The notes: generated by a model not told the origin, from the sequence alone. Shown: positions 3,480-23,597, numbered from the stretch's first letter. The stretch: 24,028 nucleotides of DNA from a virus (IMGVR_UViG_3300031707_000172:1-24028), one strand, 5' to 3'. Program-made: numbers and translations.

Positions 3480-3731
3480 ATGAAAAAAGAAAAAAATATA
3501 ATTAAAAAGAAAATGTATTATGATGTGCATATTACAGCTCAATTACCGGCAACACTAATATATCGTATTTTTGCCGAATCACCAGAAGAGGCCGCTGAAA
3601 TGACAAAGAACGCTCATCCAAATGGTGTTAAATACAAATTAGTTGGAAGGAAAGATATAAAGCTAACCGTATATGATGCTGGATGCTCCATGATAAAGCT
3701 AGTTAAAAATCTTGTAGGTATATTGCGATGA
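3480..3731 (+). CDS. Small hypothetical protein
   Basis: An 83-residue basic protein that I do not recognise. After a lysine-rich start it contains a YDVHITAQLPAT strand and an ESPEEAAEMTKNA helix, a beta-alpha pattern common in small phage proteins of unknown function. An AGG-containing site lies a few bases upstream of the ATG, next to the preceding stop. Its stop overlaps the SET gene as ATGA, so the two are probably translated together; a link to the methyltransferase is possible but not shown. Confidence 0.7.
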   Translation: MKKEKNIIKKKMYYDVHITAQLPATLIYRIFAESPEEAAEMTKNAHPNGVKYKLVGRKDIKLTVYDAGCSMIKLVKNLVGILR

Positions 3732-6583: not shown

Positions 6584-7582
6584 ATGGGGATTCTGAATAA
6601 AACAAATATTTTCATACAAAAGGCTAATGTTATTCACCAGTCAAAATGGAATTATAATAAAACTATTTATGTTAGCGCAAAAACAAAAGTAATAATAACA
6701 TGTGATATTCATGGTGATTATTCCCAAACTCCACATAATCATCTACAAGGTCAAGGTTGTCCAAAATGCGCTGGAGTTGCAAAAAAAGACACAGATCAAT
6801 TTATAAAAGAAGCTGTTAAAAAATATGGAGATAAATGGATTTATACAAAAGTTAATTATGTTAATTCTAAAACTAAAGTAATCATAATTTGTCCTATTCA
6901 TGGTGATTTTATACAAACTCCACATAATCATCTACAAGGTCAAGGTTGTCCAAAATGCGCTGGAGTTGCAAAAAAAGACACAGATCAATTTATAAAAGAA
7001 GCTGTTAAAAAATATGGAGATAAATGGATTTATACAGAAGTAAATTATATTAGTGCCATTATAAAGGTAACGATAACTTGTTCTATTCATGGTGATTTTG
7101 AACAAACTCCAAATAGTCATCTGCAAGGCCAAGGTTGTCCAAAATGTGCTATATACGCAAAGACAAAATATGCCGAACAATTTATAAAAGAAGCCATTGG
7201 AAAGCATGGAGATAAATGGATTTATACAGAAGTTGATTATATTAATGCCTATACAAAAGTAACGATAACATGCCCTGTTCATGGTGATTTTGAACAAACT
7301 CCACATAATCATCTACAAGGTCGTGGCTGTCCAAAATGCACCCATATTATCTCTAAACCTGAAACTATATGGATTGATTCTTTAAACATAGATCCAAAAT
7401 ATCGTCAAGCAAAAATAAAGATTGGTAAAAAATATATAAAGGCTGATGCTTATATTCCAGAAACAAATACAGTTTATGAGTTTCATGGTAATTATTGGCA
7501 TGGAAATCCAAGAATATATAAATCGAAAGATATTAATAAAACAAATAACAAAACCTTTGGCGAATTATATAAAAAACATTAG
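6584..7582 (+). CDS. Zinc-repeat/Vsr-like endonuclease, four repeats, frameshifted near its end
   Basis: A 332-residue product with four 63-residue repeats (about residues 8-262), each reading YxKVNYxNxKTKV, C-x-x-HGDFxQTP, HLxGxGCPKC. The two Cys/His pairs suggest a treble-clef zinc finger; I associate this pattern with Pfam DUF723, recalled and not checked. The C-terminus is a Vsr-like or PD-(D/E)XK nuclease: KADAYIPETNTVYEFHG, then YWHGNP. It stops early (TAG 7580-7582) because a run of A's at 7571-7576 is one base shorter than in the sister gene at 8504; the missing tail lies in the next frame to 7662. The ATG directly follows the IF-1 stop with no Shine-Dalgarno site. Function is probably that of a mobile or site-specific nuclease. 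Confidence 0.82.
   Translation: MGILNKTNIFIQKANVIHQSKWNYNKTIYVSAKTKVIITCDIHGDYSQTPHNHLQGQGCPKCAGVAKKDTDQFIKEAVKKYGDKWIYTKVNYVNSKTKVIIICPIHGDFIQTPHNHLQGQGCPKCAGVAKKDTDQFIKEAVKKYGDKWIYTEVNYISAIIKVTITCSIHGDFEQTPNSHLQGQGCPKCAIYAKTKYAEQFIKEAIGKHGDKWIYTEVDYINAYTKVTITCPVHGDFEQTPHNHLQGRGCPKCTHIISKPETIWIDSLNIDPKYRQAKIKIGKKYIKADAYIPETNTVYEFHGNYWHGNPRIYKSKDINKTNNKTFGELYKKH
6650..7330. repeat. Tandem 189-bp coding repeats of the first zinc-repeat nuclease
   Basis: Units of 189 bp (63 codons) recur. The stretch around 6739-6840 is repeated nearly base for base around 6928-7029, indicating recent duplication or gene conversion within the gene. Confidence 0.8.
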
Positions 7583-7662
7583 ACCGCGAAAGGTTAATTA
7601 AAGATGCCGGATATAATTTAGTAATAATGTGGGAAGATGTTTTTTTAAAAAATAACGGGTAA
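7571..7662 (+). pseudogene. Out-of-frame C-terminal tail of the preceding nuclease
   Basis: Adding one A to the six-A run at 7571-7576 restores a frame reading TLDRERLIKDAGYNLVIMWE and so on to TAA at 7660-7662. This matches the intact paralogue (TLDRENLIKNAGYELIVKWE). The nuclease therefore either lost its last helix and strand recently or the base is a homopolymer error in the assembly. Confidence 0.8.
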
Positions 7663-7680
7663 TTAATATAGAAAACTAGA

Positions 7681-8466
7681 CTAATCTATTTTGTAGGTTT
7701 TAAATCCAATTATTCTATATAACGTAGGTTTACTTATATTATATATTTGACAAATTTCTTTTGGCGATTTCGTTTTATTTTTAAATATATGTCTAATTTC
7801 GGCCGCTTGCACATTGCTTAATTTGGCATTTGGCCGATCTTCTCCCTTTAATTTTGAAAGAGATTTTAATACATTTTCGCTAATTATTTTTCTTTGCTCA
7901 TATGTTTTTTTGGTCCCTTTCATTGAATTGCTTTTGCCCAATTTAGCCATACTTATTTTTAGTTTAGCCACACCCGTTTGTTTTTTCCCAAACATAGCAT
8001 TTTTTTCACCAGATCTATCTATACTATATTGTTTTTTAGTTTCAATACTATGTTTACGCCCTAGCACTGGAACTCTTCTTTTTTGTGCGGCCCTAAGTTT
8101 TTCCCGAGTTTCTTTTGTGGGGTGAGTTCCATACAAAGGGTGACTGACTCCGGATCCAAGCCCTTCCCCTCCAGACGTTTCATTGTATCCTAATTGTTTT
8201 TTATTAGACCCAAAAAATTCTATCCAAAATTTCTCGGCATCATAACTATCTACCTCATTATCAAATCTCTCAATGTCAAAAAATATAAAATTATCGGCTC
8301 CGTATTTTGATAAAGCACAATGAATAGCTCTAAACCCTCTGCCATATTTTTCTTTTCCGCCAAACGCAACCTTTTTGTGCTCGCTCCATCTTCGAGTTAA
8401 ATTATTGGTTTTGCCGATGTATAATTTATTATTTAATTTATTTTGAATTAAGTAAACATAAAACAT
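7681..8466 (-). CDS. GIY-YIG homing endonuclease with NUMOD3-like motifs
   Basis: A 261-residue protein. The GIY-YIG core spans residues 1-100: YVYLI (3-7), LYIGKT (15-20), Arg in NLTRRW (22-27), E78 and GYNETSGG (93-100). Then come NUMOD3-like segments with the HPLYGTHPTKET and GRKHSIETKKQ patterns, and a C-terminal helix-turn-helix (ICQIYNISKPTLYRI), the same modular order as SegA or I-TevI-type enzymes. I start at ATG 8466 because the domain begins there; a longer reading from 8538 would overlap the plus-strand gene and adds residues with no domain. It lies between two related zinc-repeat nuclease genes on the opposite strand. Confidence 0.9.
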   Translation of the reverse strand: MFYVYLIQNKLNNKLYIGKTNNLTRRWSEHKKVAFGGKEKYGRGFRAIHCALSKYGADNFIFFDIERFDNEVDSYDAEKFWIEFFGSNKKQLGYNETSGGEGLGSGVSHPLYGTHPTKETREKLRAAQKRRVPVLGRKHSIETKKQYSIDRSGEKNAMFGKKQTGVAKLKISMAKLGKSNSMKGTKKTYEQRKIISENVLKSLSKLKGEDRPNAKLSNVQAAEIRHIFKNKTKSPKEICQIYNISKPTLYRIIGFKTYKID

Positions 8467-8503
8467 TTTAATAATATCTCTACATGCTATATAACAATCA
8501 GAT

Positions 8504-9574
8504 ATGGTAAATGACTTAACACAAACGGTAAAATTCATACAAAAAGCAAATACTGTTCATCCATTAAAAAAATATGGTTATACAAAAGTTAATTATGTTC
8601 ATTCTAAAACTAAAGTAATCATAATTTGCCCTATTCATGGTGATTTTGAACAAACTCCAAATAGTCATCTGCAAGGTAAAGGCTGTCCAGAATGTGCTAT
8701 ATACACAAAGACAAAAGATGCCGAACAATTTATAAAAGAAGCCATTGGAAAGTATGGAGATAAATGTAGTTATACAAAAGTTGATTATAAAAATAACTAT
8801 ACGAAAGTAACGATAACATGTCGTATTCATGGTGATTTTGAACAAACTCCAAGTAGCCATCTGAAAGGGCGGAGCTGCTCAGAATGTGCTGGAAATGTAA
8901 AAAAAGATACAGAGCAATTTATAAAAGAAGCCATTGGAAAGTATGGAGATAAATGGATTTATACAAAAGTTAATTATATTAATGCCTATACAAAAGTAAT
9001 AATGATATGCCGTATTCATGGTGATTTTGAACAAACTCCAAGTAATCATCTGCAAGGCCAAGGTTGTCCAGAATGTGCTATATACGCAAAGACAAAAGAT
9101 GCCGAACAATTTATAAAAGAAGCCATTGGAAAGTATGGAGATAAATGTAGTTATACAAAAGTTGATTATAAAAATAACTATACGAAAGTAACGATAACAT
9201 GTCGTATTCATGGTGATTTTAAACAAATTCCAATTGATCATCTGCGAGGTCATGGTTGTCCAAAATGCACCCATATTATTTCCAAATCAGAAACCATATG
9301 GCTTGACTCATTAAATATCGAGCCAAAATATCGGCAGGCAAAAATAAAGATTGGTAAAAAAAATATAAGAGCCGATGCTTATGTTCCAGAGACAAATACA
9401 GTTTATGAATTTCATGGTAAGTTTTGGCATGGTTCCCCTAAACACTTTAATCAAAATGATATTAATCCAAGAACAAAAACAACCTATGGCGAATTATACA
9501 AAAAAACATTAGATAGAGAAAATCTAATAAAAAATGCTGGATACGAATTAATTGTTAAATGGGAAGGAGATTAA
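8504..9574 (+). CDS. Zinc-repeat/Vsr-like endonuclease, four repeats, intact
   Basis: A 356-residue protein closely related to the product of 6584-7582. Four 63-residue repeats begin near 11, 74, 137 and 201, each with a C-x-x-H-G-D-F motif and a later C-x-x-C. The C-terminal nuclease (about 262-356) has D291 and E302 eleven residues apart, then EFHGKFWHGSP, which recalls the HGCFWHGH motif of Vsr mismatch endonucleases, and ends in LIKNAGYELIVKWEGD. The repeats probably bind zinc and DNA. It ends 2 bp before a convergent gene. The Shine-Dalgarno site is weak. Repeats 2 and 4 share an identical KCSYTKVDYKNNYTKVTITC segment, a sign of internal duplication or conversion. Confidence 0.85.
   Translation: MVNDLTQTVKFIQKANTVHPLKKYGYTKVNYVHSKTKVIIICPIHGDFEQTPNSHLQGKGCPECAIYTKTKDAEQFIKEAIGKYGDKCSYTKVDYKNNYTKVTITCRIHGDFEQTPSSHLKGRSCSECAGNVKKDTEQFIKEAIGKYGDKWIYTKVNYINAYTKVIMICRIHGDFEQTPSNHLQGQGCPECAIYAKTKDAEQFIKEAIGKYGDKCSYTKVDYKNNYTKVTITCRIHGDFKQIPIDHLRGHGCPKCTHIISKSETIWLDSLNIEPKYRQAKIKIGKKNIRADAYVPETNTVYEFHGKFWHGSPKHFNQNDINPRTKTTYGELYKKTLDRENLIKNAGYELIVKWEGD
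8590..9270. repeat. Tandem coding repeats of the second zinc-repeat nuclease
   Basis: Long, nearly identical tracts occur around 8705-8830 and 9075-9215, two units apart, and the units also match those at 6650-7330. The two genes together form a dispersed family of recombining 189-bp units. Confidence 0.8.
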
Positions 9575-9576
9575 AA

Positions 9577-10521
9577 TTAAATATTTATTTTATTTAGGAA
9601 ATCATATAGCCGATTCAATAACATTATTTTACCAGATGATGAAGATGTCGGCTTATTTTGTAAAGCTATCATTTCCGTTGGCCGTTTTTCTGGTATATCT
9701 TTCGATTTAACATCTTGCTTACCATCATAGTTATAAGCGATGTTGTGTAGCACTCCGCCATCAGTAACAAAATGTGAATATTCTGGATTTTGCAATATAT
9801 CTCTTATCAAATCAATAGGTTTACCGTTTAACTTTGCTTGACGATCTACTAATCGTACACCAGAACTATAATCGTTATAATCCTCTATATGAGGAGACGC
9901 GGCGCCTGGTTGTAGAGGTCTTCCATCTATTTCGTGCATACCATGAATCCCAAGTTTGCCCGGAGCTATGTCATTAGAAAGGACTATATCTTTTTTACTA
10001 CCTGCAACAAGTTCTCCAGGCACATGCCCACGTTCTTTTAATTGCTGTTGAATGATTTGATTATGATGCTCAAAAGTATCTGTATCCGTCATTTTTCCAC
10101 TAAGAAATTGTTGAACAGAATAAGTTTTGCCACCTATAGTTTGAGGTGCCCCTGATAATGGTTTTGGCGGCAATTTTGTTTTTGCCGATTTCCATATCTG
10201 ATCTGACATTTTTGTAGTTGGCAATATACACCCAAAAGCATCTGCCACTTTCTGAGCTGCTGGACCGCCTAGAGGAGTTCGCACATAATCGATATCGTCT
10301 CCAACCGCTATATAGTCAGAAAGCACGTTATAAACCAACGTAGAGCCGCCTTCAGATATTGTTATAGGTATTAGGGAGCGAAGAAAGTTTGGAAAATTGC
10401 CACGAATAATCTCGTTAGAAATTAAATCATCACGATTTCCAGAACCTACCATTTTCATTATGCTTGATATAAAAATCGACCCCGGTAATGCTGTTGCTGG
10501 TCTTGACGGGAAATTAGCCAT
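9577..10521 (-). CDS. Unknown protein, paralogue of the gene at 11283-12173
   Basis: A 314-residue protein in an unnamed family shared with the product of 11283-12173. Shared blocks in order are GNFPNFLRSL (41-50), DYIAVGDDIDYVRTPL (69-84), AQKVADAFGCILPTTKM (89-105), PGELVAGSKKDIV (168-180), HGMHEIDGRPLQP (193-205), HIEDYNDYSSGVRLV (211-225) and a DGGVLHN segment (254-260). Conserved His, Asp, Lys and Arg residues suggest an enzyme, but I cannot assign a reaction. No signal peptide is seen. It is the last gene of a minus-strand trio; its ATG overlaps the GIY-YIG stop (ATGGCTAA). Confidence 0.75.
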   Translation of the reverse strand: MANFPSRPATALPGSIFISSIMKMVGSGNRDDLISNEIIRGNFPNFLRSLIPITISEGGSTLVYNVLSDYIAVGDDIDYVRTPLGGPAAQKVADAFGCILPTTKMSDQIWKSAKTKLPPKPLSGAPQTIGGKTYSVQQFLSGKMTDTDTFEHHNQIIQQQLKERGHVPGELVAGSKKDIVLSNDIAPGKLGIHGMHEIDGRPLQPGAASPHIEDYNDYSSGVRLVDRQAKLNGKPIDLIRDILQNPEYSHFVTDGGVLHNIAYNYDGKQDVKSKDIPEKRPTEMIALQNKPTSSSSGKIMLLNRLYDFLNKINI

Positions 10522-11305
10522 TATTGTCCAAATCTTTTAGTTTATCTCTACTTATTTTTTTTACTTTATTTTCACAATACCTACACCTATATGCCAAACT
10601 ATCGGGGGACTTTGCCTGTTTATTAAACTCATTATTATTTTTCACTAAATTACAAACCGAGCAAGCCTTATGGTTTTCGGGTAAGCTGGCCTCTGGAACA
10701 ACGACCTCCATGTATGCATTTTGATAACGAACTATTGCGCATATTGTAGCAAAAGAACATTCGTATTTAGCCGATAATTTGTTTATGATATTTTTCTTCT
10801 TTAACATTCTATCATTATTGTATTCGGTTCTAATATCTTTAACCTGTTCATTGGAGAACATTCTGCCTTGTGATATTTTTCCTTTGTGAGAGTCGCGCAT
10901 TCTTTGGATTGACTCTTCAGAATATTTGAAACCAATGTGTGCTAACCTCATTTTTTCTATCGATTTTGTGGAATGTCTACCGGCCCTACCGCCAGAAGAT
11001 AAATTATACCCAATACTTTGGTCGTTAGAATTTAACAAACCAATCATACTTTCTTCATGGCTATAAGCTTCATCTTCCGAATCAAAATAATTAATGATTT
11101 CATATGTGAAGTTATCTTTGCCATATTTATTGATAGCTTTATGTAAGAACGAATATGAGTTTGATTTTGGTTTAGTGGAAGTGTATATGTGATCTAAGAA
11201 ACGGGTTTGTTTTCGTCCACCACCTTTTCCAATATATATTTTTCCGTTGATTGTATTAGTTATTTTGTAAACGTAATATTTTTTAACGGTATATTTTTCT
11301 TGCAT
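10514..11305 (-). CDS. GIY-YIG homing endonuclease with C-terminal zinc finger
   Basis: A 263-residue protein: GIY-YIG core at 9-105 (YVYKI 11-15, YIGKGGG 24-30, E84 or E85, GYNLSSGGRAG 99-109), NUMOD3-like segments (HSTKSIEKMRLAHIG and YSEESIQRMRDSHKG), a helix-turn-helix-like stretch near 170-195, and a C-x2-C...C-x2-C zinc finger (C215, C218, C241, C244) of the kind found in phage HNH and GIY-YIG proteins. I use ATG 11305; the codon before is an in-frame TTG. It overlaps the upstream gene by 23 bp and the downstream gene by 8 bp, so it sits exactly between two paralogues without breaking either. Confidence 0.88.
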   Translation of the reverse strand: MQEKYTVKKYYVYKITNTINGKIYIGKGGGRKQTRFLDHIYTSTKPKSNSYSFLHKAINKYGKDNFTYEIINYFDSEDEAYSHEESMIGLLNSNDQSIGYNLSSGGRAGRHSTKSIEKMRLAHIGFKYSEESIQRMRDSHKGKISQGRMFSNEQVKDIRTEYNNDRMLKKKNIINKLSAKYECSFATICAIVRYQNAYMEVVVPEASLPENHKACSVCNLVKNNNEFNKQAKSPDSLAYRCRYCENKVKKISRDKLKDLDNNG

Positions 11306-12173
11306 CAAAAGCCCCGTCAGAGTTAATTAAAGATGAAACCGATCCATCATTTAATATATCATAAATATTTTTTTCAGCACCATTAACAGTTGCTTTTGAA
11401 TATATTAGTCTAACTCCATGTGCATAATCCGAATAATTGATGCTATGACTAACACTATTCACTCCCTGTATTGGTTTACCATGAGCGAACCAACCATATA
11501 TGGAAACATTACCACGACGAGACAATAGGCTTTTATCAATTATTATATCTTTCTTATGACCTGCAACTAATGTGCCAGGTTCTTTCCCAATCAATTGATT
11601 TTTGATTTGTTCATTACTCCACTCGAATCTTGCAGTCCCCTCCATTTCTTCATTATACGGGGGGCCATGAGGAACAGCCTCTAGTTTTATTGCGGCAGAT
11701 CTATAGATATCATCAACCATTTTTTTTGTTGGAAGAACGCAGCCATATAAATCCGCTATTTTTTGGGCAGTTATCGGGTTCATAGGCATCCTACAATAAT
11801 CATTATTAGTTCCAATGCTCAAATAATCTGGGGAAACAAAGTAAGTAATTGTATTTGCACCCAAGGAAACATGAACTGGCTGAAAATTTCTTAAAAAATC
11901 TGGGACATTGCCTTTTTGAAACTCATGCAGTATATTTGCTTCGCGAGACGAGTGGTCATTTTTCATATTATCATGAAGAAACTTTGAACCTGTAGCCGCA
12001 TCAGAAGACTTTGCTGGTATATTAGCGAAATCATTAACTTTAATAATTTCTGCAGTATCAATAGTTTGCGTGGTAGTTTCAGATAAAACAGCTGCGGCAA
12101 CTTTTGAGACATCTGTTATATTTTTGTTATTGAAAATGCTGCTGAAAATATCTAAGATTTTTGAAAATGACAT
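11283..12173 (-). CDS. Unknown protein, paralogue of the gene at 9577-10521
   Basis: A 296-residue protein with the same conserved blocks as its paralogue: NVPDFLRNFQPV (89-100), DYLSIGTNNDYCRMPM (116-131), AQKIADLYGCVLPTKKM (136-152), PGTLVAGHKKDII (199-211), IYGWFAHGKPIQG (225-237), HSINYSDYAHGVRLI (243-257) and a final SLINSDGAF (281-289). The first 85 residues are a less conserved, polar extension. Its C-terminus ends abruptly after the last shared motif, where the GIY-YIG gene overlaps it, so the true end may have been replaced when the endonuclease arrived. Function unknown; it has enzyme-like conserved polar residues. Confidence 0.75.
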   Translation of the reverse strand: MSFSKILDIFSSIFNNKNITDVSKVAAAVLSETTTQTIDTAEIIKVNDFANIPAKSSDAATGSKFLHDNMKNDHSSREANILHEFQKGNVPDFLRNFQPVHVSLGANTITYFVSPDYLSIGTNNDYCRMPMNPITAQKIADLYGCVLPTKKMVDDIYRSAAIKLEAVPHGPPYNEEMEGTARFEWSNEQIKNQLIGKEPGTLVAGHKKDIIIDKSLLSRRGNVSIYGWFAHGKPIQGVNSVSHSINYSDYAHGVRLIYSKATVNGAEKNIYDILNDGSVSSLINSDGAFDARKIYR

Positions 12174-12219
12174 GTATTTTGCCTTGGATTTTTAATTAAT
12201 TTAACTTGAAAGATATGCA

Positions 12220-12250
12220 TTAACAATATCAGGATATGGATATATGTTAA
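12220..12250. promoter_or_regulatory. Inverted repeat upstream of the purine-enzyme gene
   Basis: TTAACAATATC (12220-12230) pairs with GATAT-a-TGTTAA (12239-12250), eleven base pairs with a single-base bulge and an eight-base loop. It lies in the divergent interval 12174-12268, four bases before the Shine-Dalgarno site. It could be an operator dyad or an RNA hairpin controlling translation. Confidence 0.5.
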
Positions 12251-12253
12251 TCT

Positions 12254-12260
12254 TTGGAGG
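12254..12260 (+). promoter_or_regulatory. Ribosome binding site deciding the start at 12269
   Basis: TTGGAGG, followed by an 8-nt spacer, leads to ATG 12269. It shows that an in-frame TTG at 12254, which is part of the site itself, is not the start. Confidence 0.8.
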
Positions 12261-12268
12261 CGTTATTT

Positions 12269-14467
12269 ATGACTGAACAATTTGAAACAGGCTTAACATT
12301 TGCTGAGGGGCTTACATATGATGATATTTTATTAATTCCACAGTATTCAGAAATAGAAAGCCGTTCTAAAATTGATTTATCAGTTCAATTATCTAAAGGA
12401 ATTAAATTAAAAATACCGATTGTTCCAGCCAATATGAAAACTATAACGTCTTATGATATGGCGGAGGAGATTTTTAATCTTAAAGGAATGGCTGTCGTTC
12501 ATAGATTTATGCCGATTGAAGATCAAATAGAGTTAGCCACAAAATTAGTTAATCGTAATATTGCTTCAAACCCTCTAGACTACGTCGGATTTTCGGTTGG
12601 TGTTAAACCAGAAGATTACGACAATCTTCACAAATTAATTAAAGCAGGAGTTAAAATAATCTGTATTGATATTGCTCATGGTGATTCATTAATGTGCGTT
12701 AATATGATTAAATATATTGCTTCAAAGTATCCAAATGTATTTTTGATTGCTGGTAATGTGGCGACTTATGATGGCACCATGAGATTGTTTGAAGCCGGTG
12801 CTGATATGGTTAAAGTTGGTATTGGGCCTGGTTGCTTTGCAGCTGGAACAAGGATATTAATGTCTAATGGTTTATATAAAAATATTGAAAATATAATACC
12901 TGGCGATTATGTTATTAATAAAAATGGAAAATCAGTTAAAGTATTAGCTTCTTTTCCTACTGGCACAAAAAATGTTGTAAAATTAAAAAATAATTCATTT
13001 TATAATGACACTTATGTTACCACGGACCATCAATTTTGGGTTGGGGATTTATCATCGGTGTCAGATAATACTTTATCTTCAAGCGGTTACGCTAAAATTT
13101 TAGATCGGAAAAGCAAAACTATTCCGAAGCAATCTAAATATAAATGGAAGCGTATTTCTGATGCTCAAAATGACGTACTGCTTTTCCCCAAAAATATAAA
13201 TTTCACAATGCCAGAAACTTTTAACTTATCTTTAAATAAAAGAGATGCTGGTAATTGTGTGACTGGATATTTTTATTCAGAAGATGTTCAAATAGTTCCA
13301 AATTACGATAGTGGATATTTATTTGGAACATTTTTAGGTAACGGCTGTGCATCCTGCACTGTTACTAAAGGCAGCCATTCCGGAATGGTATCATGGTATT
13401 TTGGAAAAGAAGAAATTGATATCGCGAATAAAGTAGTCAAATCTATTAAAAGTATCTTTAATAAAGACGCTATTATCGTGGAGACAAAAAATACAATTGA
13501 TGTTAAATTTTATTACAAACCTTTAGCGGACTTTTTACTTACATTTGATAAAAAAGAAAACAAACATTTACCTGCAAATTTATTCGTAAATAATAAAAAA
13601 TATTTAACTGGATTGTATGATGGACTTTTAGATAGTGATGGACACTATGCCACCGACGGGAGAAAAAGTGTAACAAGCACTTCAATTAAAATAATTGAAT
13701 TATTTAACGTAATTCATTTTATGCTGAACGGGCATTTACCAAATAATACTTTTATCGGCAAGAGAATAGGAGGATTAAAAGGATGTAACATAGATAATAT
13801 GAATGAGGCATACCTATCGCGCACATTAAAATCTGGTGAAAAAAGATTGACTGATGATTATCAAATAGTTAAAATATTAAAATATGAAGAGTTAAATATG
13901 GAAATTCCAGTATATGATATTACTGTTGATTGTTGTACTCATAGTTTTATAGCTAATAATATGATTGTGCACAATTCTCTTTGCACAACTAGAATTGAAA
14001 CGGGTAATGGAGTTCCTCAATTAACCGCAATTATGCATGCATATTCTGCCAAGGTAGAGTTTGAACATAAAACTAATAAAAAAGCTTTTATCATGGCTGA
14101 CGGTGGCGTGAAAAATTCTGGAGACTGTGTTAAAGCGCTTTGTTATTCGGACCTTGTTATGGCCGGAAACTTATTCTCTGGCACAGACGAGACGCCTGGA
14201 ACAATTCTGACCATTGATGGGATGCAATATAAAGAATATGTTGGGAGTTCTACTCATAAAACATCGAGAATAGAAGGGGTTGCTGCATTAGTGCCAACAA
14301 AAGGACCTGTACGAAATATTGTTAAAAGGTTATGTGAGGGGCTTCAATCTGGAATGGCGTATCAAGGTGTCAGCAATTTATCTGATTTGAAAATAGAACA
14401 CAGAATGGCAAGAATAACAAATGCAGGATTAGTAGAGTCTTATCCTCATGACGTTAGGACTAAGTGA
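12269..14467 (+). CDS. IMP dehydrogenase/GMP reductase family enzyme with an intein
   Basis: A 732-residue precursor. Removing the 381-residue intein (189-569) leaves a 351-residue TIM-barrel enzyme, the size of GMP reductase or a CBS-less IMP dehydrogenase. N-extein: GLTYDDILLIPQYSEIESRS and PIVPANMKTIT (the PANM pattern favours GMP reductase), then AGNVATYDG and VKVGIGPG. C-extein: SLCTTR with catalytic Cys 572, MADGGVKNSGD, GPVRNIVKRLCEGLQSGM and RITNAGLVESYPHDV, closer to IMP dehydrogenase. It would act on IMP or GMP in the purine pool. The family is sure; the reaction is not. The stop overlaps thyA (TGATG). Confidence 0.9.
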   Translation: MTEQFETGLTFAEGLTYDDILLIPQYSEIESRSKIDLSVQLSKGIKLKIPIVPANMKTITSYDMAEEIFNLKGMAVVHRFMPIEDQIELATKLVNRNIASNPLDYVGFSVGVKPEDYDNLHKLIKAGVKIICIDIAHGDSLMCVNMIKYIASKYPNVFLIAGNVATYDGTMRLFEAGADMVKVGIGPGCFAAGTRILMSNGLYKNIENIIPGDYVINKNGKSVKVLASFPTGTKNVVKLKNNSFYNDTYVTTDHQFWVGDLSSVSDNTLSSSGYAKILDRKSKTIPKQSKYKWKRISDAQNDVLLFPKNINFTMPETFNLSLNKRDAGNCVTGYFYSEDVQIVPNYDSGYLFGTFLGNGCASCTVTKGSHSGMVSWYFGKEEIDIANKVVKSIKSIFNKDAIIVETKNTIDVKFYYKPLADFLLTFDKKENKHLPANLFVNNKKYLTGLYDGLLDSDGHYATDGRKSVTSTSIKIIELFNVIHFMLNGHLPNNTFIGKRIGGLKGCNIDNMNEAYLSRTLKSGEKRLTDDYQIVKILKYEELNMEIPVYDITVDCCTHSFIANNMIVHNSLCTTRIETGNGVPQLTAIMHAYSAKVEFEHKTNKKAFIMADGGVKNSGDCVKALCYSDLVMAGNLFSGTDETPGTILTIDGMQYKEYVGSSTHKTSRIEGVAALVPTKGPVRNIVKRLCEGLQSGMAYQGVSNLSDLKIEHRMARITNAGLVESYPHDVRTK
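12833..13975 (+). mobile_element. Intein with LAGLIDADG endonuclease domain, in the catalytic loop of the purine enzyme
   Basis: An in-frame 381-residue insertion between GPG and SLCTTR. Intein blocks are clear: Cys1 in CFAAGTRILM, TTDH of block B (63-66), a DOD endonuclease with motifs LFGTFLGNG (163-171) and YDGLLDSDG (262-270), block F VYDITVDCCTHSFIANN (360-376), penultimate His380, last Asn381 and Ser as the +1 residue. All residues for protein splicing are present, so the active site should be rebuilt on excision. The first endonuclease motif has Asn where a catalytic Asp is expected, so cutting may be impaired. Confidence 0.95.
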
Positions 14468-15812: not shown

Positions 15813-15833
15813 TAATTGGTTGGCATATCGATA

Positions 15834-15858
15834 TATATTGCAGAGGAGACTGCATATA
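15834..15858 (+). promoter_or_regulatory. Hairpin presenting the ribosome site of the helicase gene
   Basis: TGCAG (15839-15843) and CTGCA (15850-15854) pair around the loop AGGAGA, which is itself the Shine-Dalgarno site. A one-base bulge lets TATA on either side extend the stem. The TTG start lies at 15860. Such a loop could hold the site open or respond to temperature or a protein. Confidence 0.45.
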
Positions 15859-15859
15859 A

Positions 15860-17356
15860 TTGATTGAAACAGTAAGCCAGCTAATAATTCATGATAATAA
15901 GCATTGTCAGTATATTACGAACAATATAGTTATATTTAACAAGCTCAAGAGACATTTATCATACAAGGCAGTTGGTGTTGAATATACAGCTGCTTATAAG
16001 AATGGGTGGAGTGGCATTACATATTTAATGGATAAACACGGATATTTTTTACTTGGTTTATTAAGCAATGTCAAAGAGTTTTTGGCTGAAAATAAAGATT
16101 ATCCGACAATTACAGACAATAGAAAAAAAGTAATTACAAATGAAAGTATTGATTTAACAGAAAAATTAAAAAATATAAATATAACTCCAAGAGATTATCA
16201 AGAAAAAATAGTTGAGGTATCGTTAAATAATTCAAAGGGTATAGTTAGGGCGTGTACAGGTAGTGGCAAGACCATCTGCACCGCTATGATAACTGCAAAA
16301 GTTAATAAGCCTACCATCATATATGTTATTGGGCTAGATTTGCTGCAACAATTTCACGATCTATTTTCCTCTTTATTTGATGAGGAGATTGGGTTTATTG
16401 GAAACGGAATATGTAATGTTAGGAGAATAAACATTGCAAGCATATGGACAGTTGGAAGATCATTAAAATTAAATCCAAAGGGCATTGTTGATGAAGAGGA
16501 TGATTTAGTTGAGAAAGAGCCGAGCCAAGAACAAGCGGCTCAGGTTGTGAATATGTTAAAAATATCTAAGCTACATATTTTTGATGAGAGTCATGTTATT
16601 ACTACCGACACAATAAAGCACATACTTAACACAATTGATCCTGAGCATATTCTTGGGTTTTCTGGTACGCCTTATCGTGATGACGGAACAGATATGCTTA
16701 TTACTGGTATTCTTGGAGAAAAAATTATTGATGTTAGTGCATCATTATTAATTAAAAGCGGAGTTCTTGCTCAGCCAATAATTAAGTTTATTTCAGTTCC
16801 GCCAATACATATGCAGATGGCGCAATATCAAACAGTATATAAGGCATACATAGTTGATAATGAGGCCAGGAATAATTTAATAATTCAGCAAGCAGAAGAA
16901 TTGCTTGAAAAGAAATATACTCCACTTATTTTATTTAAACAGATAAAGCATGGGGCACTTTTATTCGAGATGATGAAGGAACGTGGAATTAAATGTGAAA
17001 TATTAGATGGTAATGATTCGTTAGAAAGAAGGACCGAAGTTAAGAAAATGTTGGAAAATAAAGAGATAAGCTTAATACTGGCCAGCACTATATTTGATAT
17101 TGGAGTAGACTTACCAGTACTTAATGCTCTAATTTTAGCTGGCGGAGGAAAGAGCAGTATTCGTACATTGCAAAGAATTGGCCGCGTTATTCGTTCATAT
17201 CCTGGTAAGAAGGTTGCGGCCATTGTTGATTTTTATGATCAAGTTAAGTTTCTAAAAAAGCATGCCGAGTTAAGATATGGTATTTATAAAAACGAAAATG
17301 GGTTCAAAATATTTAAGACAAAAGAAATGTATAAGCTTGATAGGCACGCAGAATAA
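15860..17356 (+). CDS. Superfamily 2 DNA helicase, UvsW-like
   Basis: A 498-residue ATP-dependent helicase with RDYQ (111-114), Walker A CTGSGKT (132-138), FDESH (241-245), SGTPYR (268-273) and QRIGR (438-442). The N-terminal 100 residues (GWSGITYLMDKHGYFLLG) resemble the UvsW family N-terminal domain that binds branched DNA. T4 UvsW unwinds R-loops and drives branch migration, moving replication from origin-dependent to recombination-dependent mode; a like role is inferred. The start is TTG 15860, with AGGAGA 11 nt upstream in a hairpin loop; the next Met is residue 57, inside the N-terminal domain. It opens a unit with replication genes downstream. Confidence 0.9.
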   Translation: MIETVSQLIIHDNKHCQYITNNIVIFNKLKRHLSYKAVGVEYTAAYKNGWSGITYLMDKHGYFLLGLLSNVKEFLAENKDYPTITDNRKKVITNESIDLTEKLKNINITPRDYQEKIVEVSLNNSKGIVRACTGSGKTICTAMITAKVNKPTIIYVIGLDLLQQFHDLFSSLFDEEIGFIGNGICNVRRINIASIWTVGRSLKLNPKGIVDEEDDLVEKEPSQEQAAQVVNMLKISKLHIFDESHVITTDTIKHILNTIDPEHILGFSGTPYRDDGTDMLITGILGEKIIDVSASLLIKSGVLAQPIIKFISVPPIHMQMAQYQTVYKAYIVDNEARNNLIIQQAEELLEKKYTPLILFKQIKHGALLFEMMKERGIKCEILDGNDSLERRTEVKKMLENKEISLILASTIFDIGVDLPVLNALILAGGGKSSIRTLQRIGRVIRSYPGKKVAAIVDFYDQVKFLKKHAELRYGIYKNENGFKIFKTKEMYKLDRHAE

Positions 17357-17361
17357 ACATC

Positions 17362-18699
17362 GTGGAACATTGCTGCTATCTAATTAGAAACTCTGTTAAT
17401 AACAAAGTTTACGTTGGCGTTACTAAAAAGACAATAGATCAGAGATTTGCTGAACATGCAAAAATTTCCAATTTCAAAAATGATAAAAACAAATATGCCA
17501 TCAATCACGCTATTGCTAAGTATGGCAAGGATAATTTTAATATAATTGAGCTTGAAAAGTTCGGAAGTTCTGATTTAGCTTACGCTGCCGAAGTCAAATA
17601 TATAAACCAATACCAATCAAATAAAGCTAAATATGGCTATAATGAAACGTCCGGGGGAAAAGCTGGATCGATTTATAAATTATCGCTTAATAAAAAGTTA
17701 ATTTGCGACGTATTGACAGGTTATTGTGAAGGGTTAAAGGTTAGAGACATGGCTAATAAACATGGTATCTCTTACTATAGAATTTTTGATATCACAAGAT
17801 TAATATTCTCTAAAGATCATGAAATACCTAAAGAGTTAATTGAGCGCGTAAGATGTAAAAAATACAAGTCAAGCAAAAGAAAAAAAATAAACAAAGATAT
17901 AGCAATAAATATATTATCTGATTTTTCTACTGGCAAATATTCAATAACAAAATTAGCTAAAATATATAATGTTTCAACTTCTAATATGTTTAGCATAGTT
18001 AAGCGGCTTACATTTTCTTACATTGTGATTGATACTAAAATAACAAAAAAGATTAACAAAATTTTAACAAATAAAAGGTTGCGCAAGATGGCGAAGACGA
18101 TTCAAAATAATGATGATATTGTTGGAAGCTTCTCTGATTACCCAAATGATGCTTATAAGAAGTTTTTTGATAAGTTTTTGGAAACAGATAAATTGGAGAT
18201 AAAGGCATGGAGACCGATTAATGTATTGGCGTATTTTTGTAATAAATACGAGCAGCATTATAATGAAAAATATAAGTTTAAATTCAATAGCCCTAAACCA
18301 TCTAATTGTTATGAAATGTTTCAGATTAAAAAGTTAGCATCAATGATAAGCTCGGATCCGGAAATATTAAAATCTTATATTGATTGGGTTTTTAAGACAC
18401 GTGTAAAGGAAGCTAAACGAAAATTAACATCGATAGCGTTTTTAACAGTAGAAAGCCTGTCGGTCGAATATAAGATGAAATACTTGTTTACAAATAGCCA
18501 TAAAATTCAATTAAGCAGATCTTTTCCTTTACCAATTGAATATAAATCAATTCTTGATAAGGCCGGATTAAGCATTAATACATACGGGGATCTAGCATTT
18601 TTAGTTCAAATGCAAAATCCAGGGGAAAGGGTGTTGGCGGCATTCGAAGAATTAAAAATTATTGGATTTAGTTTTGAAACGTTGAAAAAAGTCATTTGA
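17362..18699 (+). CDS. GIY-YIG homing endonuclease fused in frame to an unknown phage protein
   Basis: A 445-residue reading with two parts. Residues 1-240: GIY-YIG nuclease (CYLIRN, VYVGVTKKT, R28, E77, GYNETSGGKAG 92-102), then two helix-turn-helix-like segments (VRDMANKHGISYYRIFDI and ITKLAKIYNVSTSNMFSI). Residues 243-445: a separate domain that looks like a conserved phage replication or regulatory protein (WRPINVLAYFCNKYEQHY, LKSYIDWVFKTRV, KLTSIAFLTVESL) that I cannot name. The start is GTG, 5 bp after the helicase stop. No stop separates the parts, and an ATG at 18088 with AAAAGG upstream could begin the second part alone. Confidence 0.82.
   Translation: MEHCCYLIRNSVNNKVYVGVTKKTIDQRFAEHAKISNFKNDKNKYAINHAIAKYGKDNFNIIELEKFGSSDLAYAAEVKYINQYQSNKAKYGYNETSGGKAGSIYKLSLNKKLICDVLTGYCEGLKVRDMANKHGISYYRIFDITRLIFSKDHEIPKELIERVRCKKYKSSKRKKINKDIAINILSDFSTGKYSITKLAKIYNVSTSNMFSIVKRLTFSYIVIDTKITKKINKILTNKRLRKMAKTIQNNDDIVGSFSDYPNDAYKKFFDKFLETDKLEIKAWRPINVLAYFCNKYEQHYNEKYKFKFNSPKPSNCYEMFQIKKLASMISSDPEILKSYIDWVFKTRVKEAKRKLTSIAFLTVESLSVEYKMKYLFTNSHKIQLSRSFPLPIEYKSILDKAGLSINTYGDLAFLVQMQNPGERVLAAFEELKIIGFSFETLKKVI
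18088..18699 (+). other. Possible internal product: unknown replication-region protein
   Basis: ATG 18088, preceded by AAAAGG at 18073-18078 with a 9-nt spacer, would give a 203-residue protein starting MAKTIQNNDDIVGSF. The N-terminal region is acidic and then rich in aromatic and charged residues. This is likely the original gene, onto whose 5' end the endonuclease was fused. Confidence 0.55.
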
Positions 18700-18703
18700 T
18701 TAA

Positions 18704-18889
18704 CATGAACTTATAGATTATTCCGTAAACTGGTATAAAAACGACGAATTTCATCGAGAAGATGGTCCTGCTATTGAAACAAAAAACGGAACATATTTTG
18801 AATATTGGCTTGATGGAAAACAACTTAATTTTCCGAATAATATTAGATTAACAAAAGACCAAATGGAACTATATATCACTTTCATGTGA
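18704..18889 (+). pseudogene. Decayed REDGPA-repeat gene, first copy
   Basis: In frame, this reads WYKNDEFHREDGPAIETKNG, then the full tail of the gene at 2994-3470 (TYFEYWLDGKQLNF, then NNIRLTKDQMELYITFM) and TGA at 18887-18889. There is no usable start: the bases around 18705-18720 resemble the start of the intact gene but are shifted and lead to a TAG. Only one repeat remains of the five. Confidence 0.8.
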
Positions 18890-18899
18890 GATCTTGAAT

Positions 18900-19099
18900 A
18901 TGAAAAATGGATTAGAAATAGACGAATACGGAAATAAGTTTTGGTATAAAAACGGCAAATGGCATCGAGAAGATGGTCCTGCTGTTGAACTTAATAACGG
19001 AACATATTTTGAATATTGGATTAAACATGAGCGAATAAATTTCCTAATAATATTAGGTTGACCAAAGAACAAATAGAATTATTAGCCGCTTTTATTTGA
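18900..19099 (+). pseudogene. Frameshifted REDGPA-repeat gene, second copy
   Basis: ATG 18900 opens with MKNGLEIDEYGNKFWYKNGK, nearly the start of the intact gene (MKNELEIDKYGDKFW), with one HREDGPA repeat. A one-base deletion in the T-run near 19041 moves the frame, giving an early stop at 19059-19061 (53 residues). In the next frame the tail continues as PNNIRLTKEQIELLAAFI to TGA 19097-19099. It may still make the short product. Confidence 0.8.
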
Positions 19100-19136
19100 A
19101 ATTTTGAATATTAAAAAAAAGGATTAAAAATATATA

Positions 19137-19520
19137 ATGATAGAAAAAAATCAATTTGTTAAGGTATTTTTTAAAAATTCAATATGCGCAGATGGATTTG
19201 TGGAACATTGGACAAACCAAAATGCGGTGTTAATATCTATGGATGGTAAATCGCGTTTCATAATTCAAAATGTTTCTGAAGATGTAATAGCCGTTAAAAT
19301 ATTTCTTGATATTATAAAGCCAAAGCCAAAACAACATGTGGAAAAACAACCGGAAACCATTAATCAAGATGATAAATATTTTAAAATAAAATCATTAATT
19401 GAACTTAGAAAACTTCAATTAGAACAAGAAAAAAAGATTATATCAGAAAAGTTAAAAGAACACTCTCCAATATATTCCAAACAAATAAAATACCAAAATC
19501 CATTTACGGGGTCAAAATAA
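19137..19520 (+). CDS. Hypothetical protein with possible Sm-like N-terminal barrel
   Basis: A 127-residue protein. Residues 1-62 alternate strands and turns (FVKVFFKNSICADGFVEHW, AVLISMDGKSRFIIQNVSED, VIAVKIF) in a way that recalls small Sm-like or SH3-like barrels; this is a pattern likeness only. Residues 80-115 form a charged helix, likely coiled coil (SLIELRKLQLEQEKKIISEK). An AAGGAT site precedes the ATG. The gene lies directly upstream of the helicase loader with no gap, which suggests a part in replication, untested. Confidence 0.65.
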   Translation: MIEKNQFVKVFFKNSICADGFVEHWTNQNAVLISMDGKSRFIIQNVSEDVIAVKIFLDIIKPKPKQHVEKQPETINQDDKYFKIKSLIELRKLQLEQEKKIISEKLKEHSPIYSKQIKYQNPFTGSK

Positions 19521-20231
19521 ATGTCGCAAGATTATTTTTCCAGATCAAAAGCATTAAACAATATACCTCAAAGAAAAATACAGGAAAAATTATTAACAAT
19601 AGAAAACTCAAATGATTCGACAGATACCAAAAATATAAAATCAATAGCCTATAATCGATATGCCGAATCAAATATTCCATTAGAATACTGGGAGCTAAAA
19701 ATGGAAAGAGATTTTATTGGCGATAAATCATTATTAGCAAAATATGAAGAAGTTGTAAATGATTTGAAATTTGCCTATACTAACGGCACTTCAATTTGTT
19801 TTGCCGGCCCACATGGAGTAGGCAAAAGCTTTTCATCAATTTCAATACTTAAAAAAGCTTCACAAAAAGGATTCTCTTGTCAATATTCCGAAATGACAAA
19901 TATTATATCTGTAATAACACAGGCATCGTCCGAAGAAAAGTTCCTTGCCAAACGAGAGCTGTCAATTGTTGATTTTCTAGTAATTGATGAAGTTGATATC
20001 CGCTTCTTCTCTTCTTCGGAAGCTGCAAATGAATTATACGCAAAAAACCTTGAATCAATATTCAGAACCAGAAAACAAAATAAACTACCAACTATTATCT
20101 GTACCAATAGCCCAAATATATTAGAGAGTTTTACCGGGGCATTAAAACAAAGCCTTGGAAGCTTATTCTCAAACAGCATGCAAATAGTGCCTGTTTTTGG
20201 CGAAGATTTTAGAAAGATCAAGAAAGGTTAA
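19521..20231 (+). CDS. DnaC/IstB-like AAA+ helicase loader
   Basis: A 236-residue AAA+ ATPase. Walker A GPHGVGKS (96-103), Walker B FLVIDEVD (152-159), sensor 1 TIICTNS (191-197) and a late Arg/Lys-rich end. The N-terminal region with RYAESNIPLEYW matches the segment before the ATPase core in DnaC-like proteins. Such loaders place a hexameric helicase on DNA. The gene lies 7 bp upstream of a DnaB-like helicase, its expected partner. Confidence 0.88.
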   Translation: MSQDYFSRSKALNNIPQRKIQEKLLTIENSNDSTDTKNIKSIAYNRYAESNIPLEYWELKMERDFIGDKSLLAKYEEVVNDLKFAYTNGTSICFAGPHGVGKSFSSISILKKASQKGFSCQYSEMTNIISVITQASSEEKFLAKRELSIVDFLVIDEVDIRFFSSSEAANELYAKNLESIFRTRKQNKLPTIICTNSPNILESFTGALKQSLGSLFSNSMQIVPVFGEDFRKIKKG

Positions 20232-20238
20232 TTACTAC

Positions 20239-21648
20239 ATGTCATTCTCAACTTTAGATTTACATATTCTTAAAACTCTGATATCAAATAAAAAACATTC
20301 GGCTGATTTTGCAAACGAATATGATGCCAAATTATTTGAACCAGATATTTGGAATTTTGCAACACTAATCCTATCTTACATCAAAACATATAAAGATACA
20401 CCGACTAAACGGGTTATTATTGAAAAACTTGGTAAAACTAATAATAAATTAATTGATTATGTTGAAAATGTTTGGAAAGAAATAGACTCTGTATCTTATG
20501 ATGATAGGGAATATAAATTCGATCTTGAAAGACTTAAAAAAAGATATGCTGAAAAAGAACTCCTAGAATTAAAAGATAAATTGGCCGGTTTAGAAGTAGG
20601 CAGAATAGACGTAAATAAACAATTGGTTGAACTTCAAAAAGTCACACAGAATGTCAAAGCGCTAAATCAAGTAAAATCATATGAGCGCAAAACATTAAAA
20701 GACTCTGTCGGTCAATTTAAAGAAGAATATAATGCAAAGATGGATAACCCTACCTTTGACAAAGGGCTTCTTACAGGATACTCTTTTCTTGATCATGCTA
20801 CAGATGGATTAAGACCAGGAGAGCTTTTATTGATTGGCGCAGAAAGTGGTGGCGGTAAAAGTATGCTGCTAATGAATATGGCAATACAATTATGGATGCA
20901 AAATAATACAATAGATATGGAATCGGAATTTACCAAAGGAATCGATGTATTGTATTTTTCATTAGAAATGCCTTTCAAACCAACATTAAATCGTGTCATG
21001 TCAAGACTTGCCAATGTTCCATCACAAAAAATTCGAAATGCTAAATTAAATCAAGAGGATATGGGTAGAATAAAAAAAGCCTTAAAATTTATTAAAAACT
21101 ACCCTAATCAATTTGAAATCATTGATATTCCTCGTGGCGCAACAATGGAAGCAATGGAACAAATGTTTGAAGATGCAAAATCTCAATTTAATCCAAAGGT
21201 TGTGGTCATAGATTATCTCGGTCTAATGGATTATGATGGTGGAAAAGATATGGATGATTGGCTGAAACTTGGAAAAATTGCCGAGAAAATCCATGAGTTT
21301 GCCCGCGTTCATAATATTATTGTCTTAAGCGCCGTACAATTAAATAGAATAAAGGCGGGTAAAGAATCTGAAGATGCCGTTGGTATGCATAGAATCGGTA
21401 GATCGGCCCTTGTGATTATGAACGCGAATATTGCTTTACAATTAATAAAACATAACAAGAATGAAGATCTCCATTCTTGCATGGAGTACGCTATTATTAA
21501 GAATAGAGATGGCATGCTCGGTAAAGGCAGGTTAATAAAAAATCTAAAATGCGCAACTCTAATTGATGAAAGATATGAGCCTGACACAAGCACGTATGAT
21601 TTATATAGTATAGATGATATTTCTGAAAAGCTTGAAAAATTAGAATAA
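20239..21648 (+). CDS. Replicative DNA helicase, DnaB-like
   Basis: A 469-residue RecA-fold hexameric helicase. Residues 1-150 are a helical N-terminal and linker domain that would bind primase and loader. The motor has TGYSFLDHATDGLRPGELLLIG (written here as TGYSFLDHATDG, 179-190), Walker A GAESGGGKS (200-208), the SLEMPF segment (241-246), Walker B KVVVIDYLGLM (320-330) and the SAVQLNR motif (364-370). ATG 20239 is chosen over an in-frame start at 20197, which would overlap the loader by 35 bp and adds no domain; AAAGG lies about 11 nt before it. The stop overlaps the following nuclease gene (TAATG). Confidence 0.92.
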   Translation: MSFSTLDLHILKTLISNKKHSADFANEYDAKLFEPDIWNFATLILSYIKTYKDTPTKRVIIEKLGKTNNKLIDYVENVWKEIDSVSYDDREYKFDLERLKKRYAEKELLELKDKLAGLEVGRIDVNKQLVELQKVTQNVKALNQVKSYERKTLKDSVGQFKEEYNAKMDNPTFDKGLLTGYSFLDHATDGLRPGELLLIGAESGGGKSMLLMNMAIQLWMQNNTIDMESEFTKGIDVLYFSLEMPFKPTLNRVMSRLANVPSQKIRNAKLNQEDMGRIKKALKFIKNYPNQFEIIDIPRGATMEAMEQMFEDAKSQFNPKVVVIDYLGLMDYDGGKDMDDWLKLGKIAEKIHEFARVHNIIVLSAVQLNRIKAGKESEDAVGMHRIGRSALVIMNANIALQLIKHNKNEDLHSCMEYAIIKNRDGMLGKGRLIKNLKCATLIDERYEPDTSTYDLYSIDDISEKLEKLE

Positions 21649-23597
21649 TGAATGGAAGTAAAAGCACAGAAAATTGTTTTAAGCATTTCCTTAAGAGAGC
21701 GAAAAATAAATTTGGAAACAAATTTGATTATTCAAAATCTATTTATATTAACGCTAAAACGAAAATATTAATTATTTGCCCAATTCATGGAGAATTTTAT
21801 CAACTTCCATTAAACCATTTAGTAGGACACGGATGCAAAGAATGTGGCAAAGAGGCCGGCGCAAAAAAAATAACATTAACCGGAAATATCTTTTTTAAAA
21901 GGGCAGGGAAAATACATAATAATAAATATTCTTATCTTAAATCTGTATATGTTGATTATACTACCGCGTTAACAATAACATGTCTAATGCACGGAGATTT
22001 TTCACAGTCTCCGTCAAACCATTTGATTGGGCATGGCTGCGTGGAATGTTCTAAAAAAAACTCTGCACGAAAACGATCAAAACCAATAGCTGCCTTTATT
22101 ATTGAAGCATTAAAAAAACATAATGGGTATGACTACTCGAAATCAATTTACGTGAATAGAAGCGCGCCCATATTAATTATTTGTCCAGTGCATGGCGAGT
22201 TTTGGCAAATTCCAGCAAATCACTTAAATGGTGCTGGTTGTCCAAAATGTAGTAGAAGCTCCGCAAATAAGAAAAAATCTAAATATTATAAAAATTTTAA
22301 AGCGTTAGCGAATATAGTTTACAATTTCAAGTATAGTTACTTAAGCGAATATGTGAATCGAAGCACTAAAGTATTAGTATTATGCAAAGATCATGGAAAA
22401 TTTTGGCAAGCGCCCATAGTACATTTAAAAGGATTTGGGTGCCCAGGTTGTCGCAAAGAACTTCGAGCAGAAAAAAGATCACTATCAGTACATGAATTCA
22501 CAATTAAATCACAAAAAACATTTAATGGCCAATGCGATTATTCATTAGTTAATTTTAAAAAAATGGACGACTTAATAACCATCACATGTTTAACTCATGG
22601 CAAGTTTAAGCAGAAAGCGAAACATCATTTAATAACCGGATGTCCAAGATGCAGAAAGCATGAGGTTATCAATTCTACAATTCCGGCTAGAAAGTATAAG
22701 TTTATTAAAAATTCTGTTAAATATCATGGAAATAAATATACTTATCTTGATCTTGATTTTAAAAACCTAAACTGTGCGGTGAATATAGGCTGTAAAACGC
22801 ACGGGCCGTTCTCCGTGATTCCGCACCATCATTTAGGCGGATATGGTTGTCCAAAATGCAAGGCGGAAACTAGATATAAACGCAACGCAATTTTTTTTAA
22901 AGAAAAAGCAGGATCGTCTCATAATAATTTTTACGATTATTCGCCGGTAATTTCAATAAAATCTTTTAATGATATAATACGCATATTGTGCCCTAAACAT
23001 AATTTGATTAAAGTTAAAGCGTTTTCACATATGAATGGTTCTAGATGTAGGCAATGCGCATATGAGACGGAACGCTTAACATTAGATCAATTTAATCAAA
23101 AGGCTTACTTAATTCACAGGGGTAAATATATATATGATTTAGTTAAATTCTGTATTGTTATGGATAAAATTAAAATAATTTGTCCACGCCACAATGTTTT
23201 CACACAAACCGTAGCCTCCCATTTAAGAGGTAGTGGGTGCCCTAATTGTTCTAAATTAGTTTCACGAGGAGAGTCTGAATGGTTAGATCATCTTAAAATA
23301 CCCTCTGAATTTAGAAACAACAAATTGACAATAAATGGCAGATCGTTCTTTCCGGACGGATATGATACTATTAACAATATAATATACGAATATAACGGAG
23401 ATTATTGGCACGGAAACCCAAATATATATCCTCCGGACGGTATAAACAAGTTAAATAAAATAAAATTCTCTCAATTGTACGAAGAAACCGTTGAAAAAGA
23501 AAATTTCTTAAAAAGCATTGGATTAAAAGTCATTTCAATATGGGAAAGTGATTGGGTTAAATATAAGGAAACGTTATGCAAAACAAAGAAGTTGTAG
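21648..23597 (+). CDS. Zinc-repeat/Vsr-like endonuclease, eight repeats
   Basis: A 649-residue protein with eight 63-70-residue repeats (about 8-540), each with the form YDYSKxxYxNxxTxxxIxC, HGxFxQ, HLxGxGCxxC. Repeats 7 and 8 have Asn after the His instead of Gly (CPKHN, CPRHN), and repeat 5 lacks the usual GxGC spacing. The C-terminal nuclease (544-649) keeps D570 and E581, eleven apart as in the 8504 gene, then YNGDYWHGNP and a final VISIWESDW. It has diverged far from the two genes at 6584 and 8504. ATG 21648 shares a base with the helicase stop, so translation is coupled. Probably a mobile nuclease using its repeats for DNA recognition. Confidence 0.85.
   Translation: MNGSKSTENCFKHFLKRAKNKFGNKFDYSKSIYINAKTKILIICPIHGEFYQLPLNHLVGHGCKECGKEAGAKKITLTGNIFFKRAGKIHNNKYSYLKSVYVDYTTALTITCLMHGDFSQSPSNHLIGHGCVECSKKNSARKRSKPIAAFIIEALKKHNGYDYSKSIYVNRSAPILIICPVHGEFWQIPANHLNGAGCPKCSRSSANKKKSKYYKNFKALANIVYNFKYSYLSEYVNRSTKVLVLCKDHGKFWQAPIVHLKGFGCPGCRKELRAEKRSLSVHEFTIKSQKTFNGQCDYSLVNFKKMDDLITITCLTHGKFKQKAKHHLITGCPRCRKHEVINSTIPARKYKFIKNSVKYHGNKYTYLDLDFKNLNCAVNIGCKTHGPFSVIPHHHLGGYGCPKCKAETRYKRNAIFFKEKAGSSHNNFYDYSPVISIKSFNDIIRILCPKHNLIKVKAFSHMNGSRCRQCAYETERLTLDQFNQKAYLIHRGKYIYDLVKFCIVMDKIKIICPRHNVFTQTVASHLRGSGCPNCSKLVSRGESEWLDHLKIPSEFRNNKLTINGRSFFPDGYDTINNIIYEYNGDYWHGNPNIYPPDGINKLNKIKFSQLYEETVEKENFLKSIGLKVISIWESDWVKYKETLCKTKKL

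Follow-up and report, generated by a model that had tools for sequence, protein, structure and literature searches.

Zinc-repeat arrays joined to a Vsr-like nuclease: three probable free-standing homing endonucleases in a caudoviral phage

Homing endonucleases combining CapR-like repeats with an EDxHD/Vsr nuclease have been described from group I and group II introns of phages (NAR 2025, PMC12350094), and that report presents the group as large and mostly unannotated, with thousands of UniProt matches. The T5orf172 homing endonucleases, such as gp174 of ICP1, also carry CapR/DUF723 zinc repeats, and in-frame loss of repeats by intragenic recombination was reported for them and modular retargeting was proposed (2023, PMC10448857). 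In addition, I-Bth0305I, an EDxHD homing endonuclease from a phage intron, has a target that is almost 60 bp long (PMC3943268), and Hef-like enzymes (phage U5 Hef and F-LimIII of LIMEstone1) possess a related nuclease of the Vsr/MTES_1575 type. This paper deals with three proteins, A, B and C, encoded by a viral stretch of DNA of 24,028 nucleotides (IMGVR_UViG_3300031707_000172:1-24028, referred to hereafter as the window). In each of them a chain of zinc modules is joined to a nuclease of the Vsr/EDxHD type, and they are very probably homing endonucleases that a caudoviral phage carries as free-standing genes.

The closest described systems share much with these proteins. The intron enzymes (PMC12350094) likewise consist of several domains of about 60 amino acids related to CapR, DUF4379 and DUF723, followed by an EDxHD/Vsr-like domain of about 100 amino acids. 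However, they are intron-borne and have 3-5 repeats, whereas A, B and C stand free between phage genes and have up to 8; an Rfam search of the window found no intron, so that intron-borne mobility was dropped as an explanation. The T5orf172 enzymes carry multiple repeats of the same zinc family, but their nuclease is GIY-YIG-like and that of A, B and C is Vsr-like. I-Bth0305I belongs to the same Vsr-related catalytic class and has a long DNA-binding region; the PDB search gave no sequence match to its structure. Many relatives with zinc repeats of the A/B/C type are annotated as Hef-like and occupy similar insertion neighbourhoods (tail tube, baseplate), but their tails of about 285-295 amino acids include an extra Mom-like GNAT domain, which is missing from the tails of A, B and C (about 100-114 amino acids). 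The zinc-repeat plus Vsr-like architecture is therefore already known (PMC12350094), and module exchange has already been proposed for the T5orf172 enzymes (PMC10448857). The accessible part of PMC12350094 contains no analysis of repeat change or of read-out; the comparison of read-out surfaces and the near-isogenic repeat alleles described below are additional to the published literature searched, and the finding that local copies draw on a shared pool of repeats with little positional orthology is also new.

The window has no near DNA match among GenBank phage records, and about 35% of it is mobile nuclease or intein sequence, with the element boundaries as set in this analysis. The original prediction had placed three related open reading frames with 4, 4 and 8 repeats at 6584, 8504 and 21648, and an ORF and repeat scan confirmed them there. 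Gene A (6584..7582, plus strand; ORF, Pfam and repeat scan) encodes 4 zinc repeats and a Vsr-like nuclease truncated by a frameshift. Its repeats, each with the core unit C-x-x-H ... C-x-x-C, lie at 6602..6772, 6791..6961, 6980..7150 and 7172..7342, and its nuclease domain occupies 7337..7662, the frame being broken at a run of six adenines (A6) near 7575 and the rest lying in the next frame up to 7662. The gene starts immediately 3' of the stop codon of an IF-1-like gene (6371..6583, plus strand), a phage-encoded homologue of the translation initiation factor that is kept in the relatives G007, G011 and G014. A homing endonuclease gene of the GIY-YIG + NUMOD3 type (7681..8538, minus strand) lies between A and B, sharing 35 bp with B at its start. 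Gene B (8504..9574, plus strand) is intact, with 4 zinc repeats at 8528..8698, 8720..8890, 8909..9079 and 9101..9271 and a Vsr-like nuclease domain at 9266..9571 (D-x10-E, HGKFWHG). Gene C (21648..23597, plus strand) encodes 8 zinc repeats, which start at 21678, 21882, 22083, 22284, 22488, 22692, 22890 and 23082, and a Vsr-like nuclease domain (23256-23594, plus strand); its ATG overlaps the last base of the stop codon of a gene for a DnaB-like helicase (20197..21648, plus strand), and at the 3' end C reaches into the start of the following gene. Around A and B, scans for promoters and terminators gave no signal above the shuffled background.

The repeats, which are spaced at 63-68 residues in A, B and C, belong to the zinc-module family that includes DUF723, as had been suggested in the original prediction, and in the literature this family is predicted to bind DNA. 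Pfam matches, far stronger than chance would give, were found to DUF4379 (2e-15, 9e-12 and 2.5e-9), DUF723 and CapR; in A, B and C alike the first two exceed the curated cut-offs, and CapR does so in A and B. An NCBIfam search returned only spurious thioredoxin-like and other matches. The four zinc ligands, examined over 439 unique repeats of relatives, are conserved at 99 (C), 98 (H), 100 (C) and 100% (C), and by analogy with the named CapR-like families the repeats are expected to bind zinc. The motif C-x-x-H-G had been attributed to every repeat, but repeats 7 and 8 of C read C-x-x-H-N. The family is large, since protein B has matches in 800 of 50,697 phage records, and it varies in repeat number from 1 to 11; three sister contigs hold copies with 1, 3, 4, 5 and 8 repeats. 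Such proteins are classified as 'endonuclease' in PHROGs (phrog_681, phrog_559). Separately, DUF4379 matches near dnaB in three related genomes (G005-G007) were considered as homing endonuclease gene remnants and rejected; they are FmdB-like zinc-ribbon ORFs.

The nuclease domain was recognized by its fold. The predicted D-x10-E spacing is present in A, B and C, and it is also common in the wider nuclease superfamily, as judged by eye from the listed tails; the HGxxWHG motif is exact in A and B, but C has NGDYWHG instead. The D, E, G and WHG are invariant in five aligned nuclease sequences. At E<=1, Pfam gave no match of A, B or C to the Vsr profile PF03852, which is matched weakly by 3 of 16 Hef-like relatives, and no T5orf172/GIY-YIG nuclease domain was matched by Pfam in the three proteins. 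Searching PDB sequences with alignments of the nuclease and of the full-length proteins yielded no significant match; the fold search succeeded. An AlphaFold2 model of B, made with 32 relatives (mean pLDDT 90.3, pTM 0.40), was matched by Foldseek to E. coli Vsr (1vsr, probability 1.00, E 9e-3) and secondly to the Vsr-DNA complex (1cw0, probability 0.96). Both the architecture and the Vsr-like fold class are thus directly supported, and by analogy with the named families the domain would be a metal-dependent cutter. The closest fold is nevertheless that of a mismatch nickase with no zinc-repeat array, which is not a homing enzyme.

Each repeat in the B model consists of a helix, a beta-hairpin, a short helix and a zinc knuckle. 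In the model of C (pLDDT 80, pTM 0.30) the linkers between most repeats are of low confidence. A superhelical array, which had been anticipated, is not predicted in either protein, given the pTM of 0.40 for B and 0.30 for C and the low-confidence linkers. Because the modules are well defined but their mutual arrangement is not, the models portray the array as beads on a string rather than a rigid superhelix.

That the genes are mobile is borne out by their presence or absence at exact junctions between relatives. The relative G007 (210 kb) has the gene order of the window with the elements missing: at the site of A, the GIY-YIG gene and B, its IF-1 gene and the end of the next gene overlap by 4 bases, and at the site of C an 'EAVRIEY' ORF follows dnaB directly. 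It also lacks the LAGLIDADG and GIY-YIG genes. The IF-1 junction is also empty in G014, and in relatives IF-1 adjoins the next gene (in one case a small ORF) without a nuclease gene. Since related contigs have both the IF-1 and the dnaB junction unoccupied, the elements are inserted in alleles that exist without them. Furthermore, the 3' junction of dnaB is occupied by an HNH endonuclease in L010 and L011 and by a 3-repeat member of the zinc-repeat nuclease family in L120, and such varied occupants are the pattern of an endonuclease hotspot.

By analogy with the named families, A, B and C would cleave DNA and home. The chain of 63-68-residue modules (helix, beta-hairpin and short helix, with zinc held by CxxH and CxxC) would most likely wrap around or track along the target as separate beads and would place the nuclease at its site in a phage without the gene; the double-strand break would then be repaired from the gene-bearing phage, and the gene would thereby be copied in. 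The repeats behave as modules that can be exchanged, so that an enzyme which gains, loses or converts a unit is probably retargeted or detuned. It is improbable that these genes are weapons rather than selfish genes, that is, repeat-guided nucleases directed against competing phages, satellites or host DNA. Related proteins do bear Mom-like acyltransferase domains, REase-Mom fusions in jumbo phages were proposed to be a restriction system (PMC7824862), and homing endonuclease-like nucleases, some of them T5orf172 enzymes, attack satellites in ICP1 (PMC10448857). However, exact insertions beside essential phage genes with presence and absence between relatives point to homing, many other homing elements lie within the same 24 kb, none of the three window proteins has a modification domain, and a PADLOC search for defence systems gave no convincing match (one hit, below usefulness). 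The two roles are compatible with each other.

Gene A ends early because the A7 run of its neighbour is A6 here. In the next frame it reads on as TLDRERLIKDAGYNLVIMWEDVFLKNNG and then a stop codon, and its last ~28 residues sit in the other frame. The frameshift is shared by the near-identical contig IMGVR_UViG_3300032053_000073. Gene A is probably decaying, to judge from the position of the frameshift in the nuclease domain; B and C look intact in their sequences. Programmed frameshifting at A6 was also considered, but the run is short and the downstream frame unsupported, and decay was preferred.

Repeat number had been said to change in whole units, and this is directly observed in two pairs of near-identical phages, each pair being separated by 2 SNPs and one in-frame repeat. 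The window and the 61-kb contig IMGVR_UViG_3300032053_000073 are identical over about 23 kb except for 2 SNPs and one 189-bp repeat, with further small indels near the left end of the window. The 189-bp unit (63 residues) that is missing in the contig combines the last part of A repeat 1 with the first part of repeat 2, a step from 4 repeats to 3, and the difference is flanked by 123-bp perfect direct repeats. In the second pair (L093 and L094), which is unrelated to the first, 6,969 bp contain 2 SNPs and one 192-bp repeat is gained or lost, a step between 5 repeats and 4. Assembly collapse is a possible source of such length differences. Exchange of repeats at the DNA level, another part of the original prediction, has support of two kinds: perfect repeats, 123 and 134 bp long, occur inside the genes, and positional orthology is lacking. 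In B, the junction of repeats 3 and 4 (9087) is identical over 134 bp to that of repeats 1 and 2 (8706). Moreover, repeats of local copies at the same position from the C-terminus are 78.1% identical, compared with 76.7% between proteins generally and 79.6% within a protein, and the local-copy repeats are thus a shared pool.

The most variable columns in the 439 unique repeats include 27, 28, 42, 44, 46, 47, 50 and 52 (hv8), which in the B model lie in the loop leading into the hairpin, where the second hairpin strand ends, and on or just after the short helix. The short helix and two loops are the likely reading surface; the eight columns may contact bases, and the number of repeats may set the length of the target. 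The hv8 set was fixed before any locus information was used, and index-matched repeats were then compared in 197 distinct complete proteins, the same locus being defined by shared flanking genes. When tails were matched at 50-59% identity, seven columns (hv8 without 42) were 40% identical in same-locus and 15% identical in different-locus pairs, as against 27% and 22% for control columns. With scaffolds matched, the excess identity at the same locus was +0.222 for hv8 (bootstrap 0.167-0.277, n=290 pairs) and +0.063 for six other hypervariable columns (0.035-0.095, n=290 pairs); after removal of the nine discovery-group proteins the values were +0.186 and, for the control, +0.069 (n=201). A tail-identity match between L076 and L128 resembled an alignment-overlap artefact and was disregarded.

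The original prediction asked for the variable positions to be compared with the insertion locus, and a link holds for part of the family: hv8 tracks locus in two large groups, but not at the dnaB junction. Tracking is strong for the tail tube/sheath locus, for the baseplate locus and for three single pairs, and it comes mostly from the Hef-like class at the two large loci and not from the nuclease class of the window itself. At a third locus there was no contrast between read and control columns, the signal is missing in a few small loci, and the small loci taken alone (36 pairs) gave no difference between read and control columns. Compared with fixed specificity positions of the TALE or zinc-finger type, hv8 tracks locus in two large loci and not in all. 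At the dnaB junction the 8-repeat C and the 3-repeat L120 protein have zero read-out residues in common, so that one junction can be used by different arrays.

Shared descent alone, with the hypervariable columns changing slowly within lineages for structural reasons, is an unlikely cause of the tracking: same-locus copies are indeed related and their tails are more alike, but the controls matched on tail identity and on repeat-scaffold identity remove overall relatedness, and the excess is small at control columns whose entropy across the family is similar. It is also rather doubtful, if somewhat easier to entertain, that the repeats bind nucleic acid mostly non-specifically (by avidity, or as RNA binders), with the nuclease or another feature setting the site and repeat number drifting. 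The wide range of repeat number, the near-identical phages one whole repeat apart and the 8- and 3-repeat copies without common read-out residues at one dnaB junction would suit such binding. So would dN/dS, which in local repeats is about 0.8-1.05 at the hypervariable columns versus 0.41, near 1 and not clearly higher; the permutation of omega was not significant in these repeats (p 0.06-0.27), and positive selection is therefore not claimed. Drift, however, would not single out hv8 among columns of comparable variability; within the two large loci the hv8 columns are conserved repeat by repeat beyond matched controls, and a shift of the repeat index drops identity to the background of 0.12-0.16.

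Tentatively, then, the repeats could be a natural swappable DNA-reading code, in which the eight columns pick bases, arrays are assembled from whole units and the shared pool retargets homing nucleases. If this were true, they would join TALE and zinc-finger arrays as a third natural scaffold for modular DNA recognition, and a real code would provide a compact programmable DNA-binding module with a nuclease already attached. In a large and barely characterised family, the question of which residues read DNA becomes directly testable, the assets being eight named columns, natural single-repeat deletion alleles and empty junctions as candidate targets.

Several observations were made on the relatives. 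The longer tail, a nuclease plus a Mom-like GNAT domain, occurs in about one third of the complete repeat proteins in the first locus set (for example L092:2972-4624, L103, L143, L153 and about 30 other loci), and the Pfam Mom family matched 8 of 16 tested (best 7e-7). The Mom-REase fusions (PMC7824862) seem to be none other than the proteins annotated as Hef-like, and a single zinc-repeat reader may serve both nuclease and DNA-modifying domains. F-LimIII of LIMEstone1 (L317:17735-19378) has the same kind of nuclease and tail with DUF7487 in place of the zinc repeats; the cutting module thus joins different readers.

Other genes of the window also differ in their state between relatives. The IMP dehydrogenase/GMP reductase gene (12254-14467) contains an intein at about 12833-13975, and its copies in G007 and G014 are without it. 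A paralogous gene pair (9577-10521 and 11283-12173) has a GIY-YIG gene between its members, which are uninterrupted neighbours in G007 and G014. A phage protein of about 200 amino acids, which is standalone in G007 (L013:2171-2773), carries at 17362-18699 an in-frame N-terminal fusion to a GIY-YIG nuclease. Between this fusion and the next gene there is a degraded, partly duplicated copy (18731-19134; 73-88% DNA identity) of 'WYKNGKxHREDGPA'-type repeats, which are also found in an ORF at 2994-3470. A SET-domain protein is encoded at 3728-4213 (Pfam SET, 1.8e-11) and is kept in G007.
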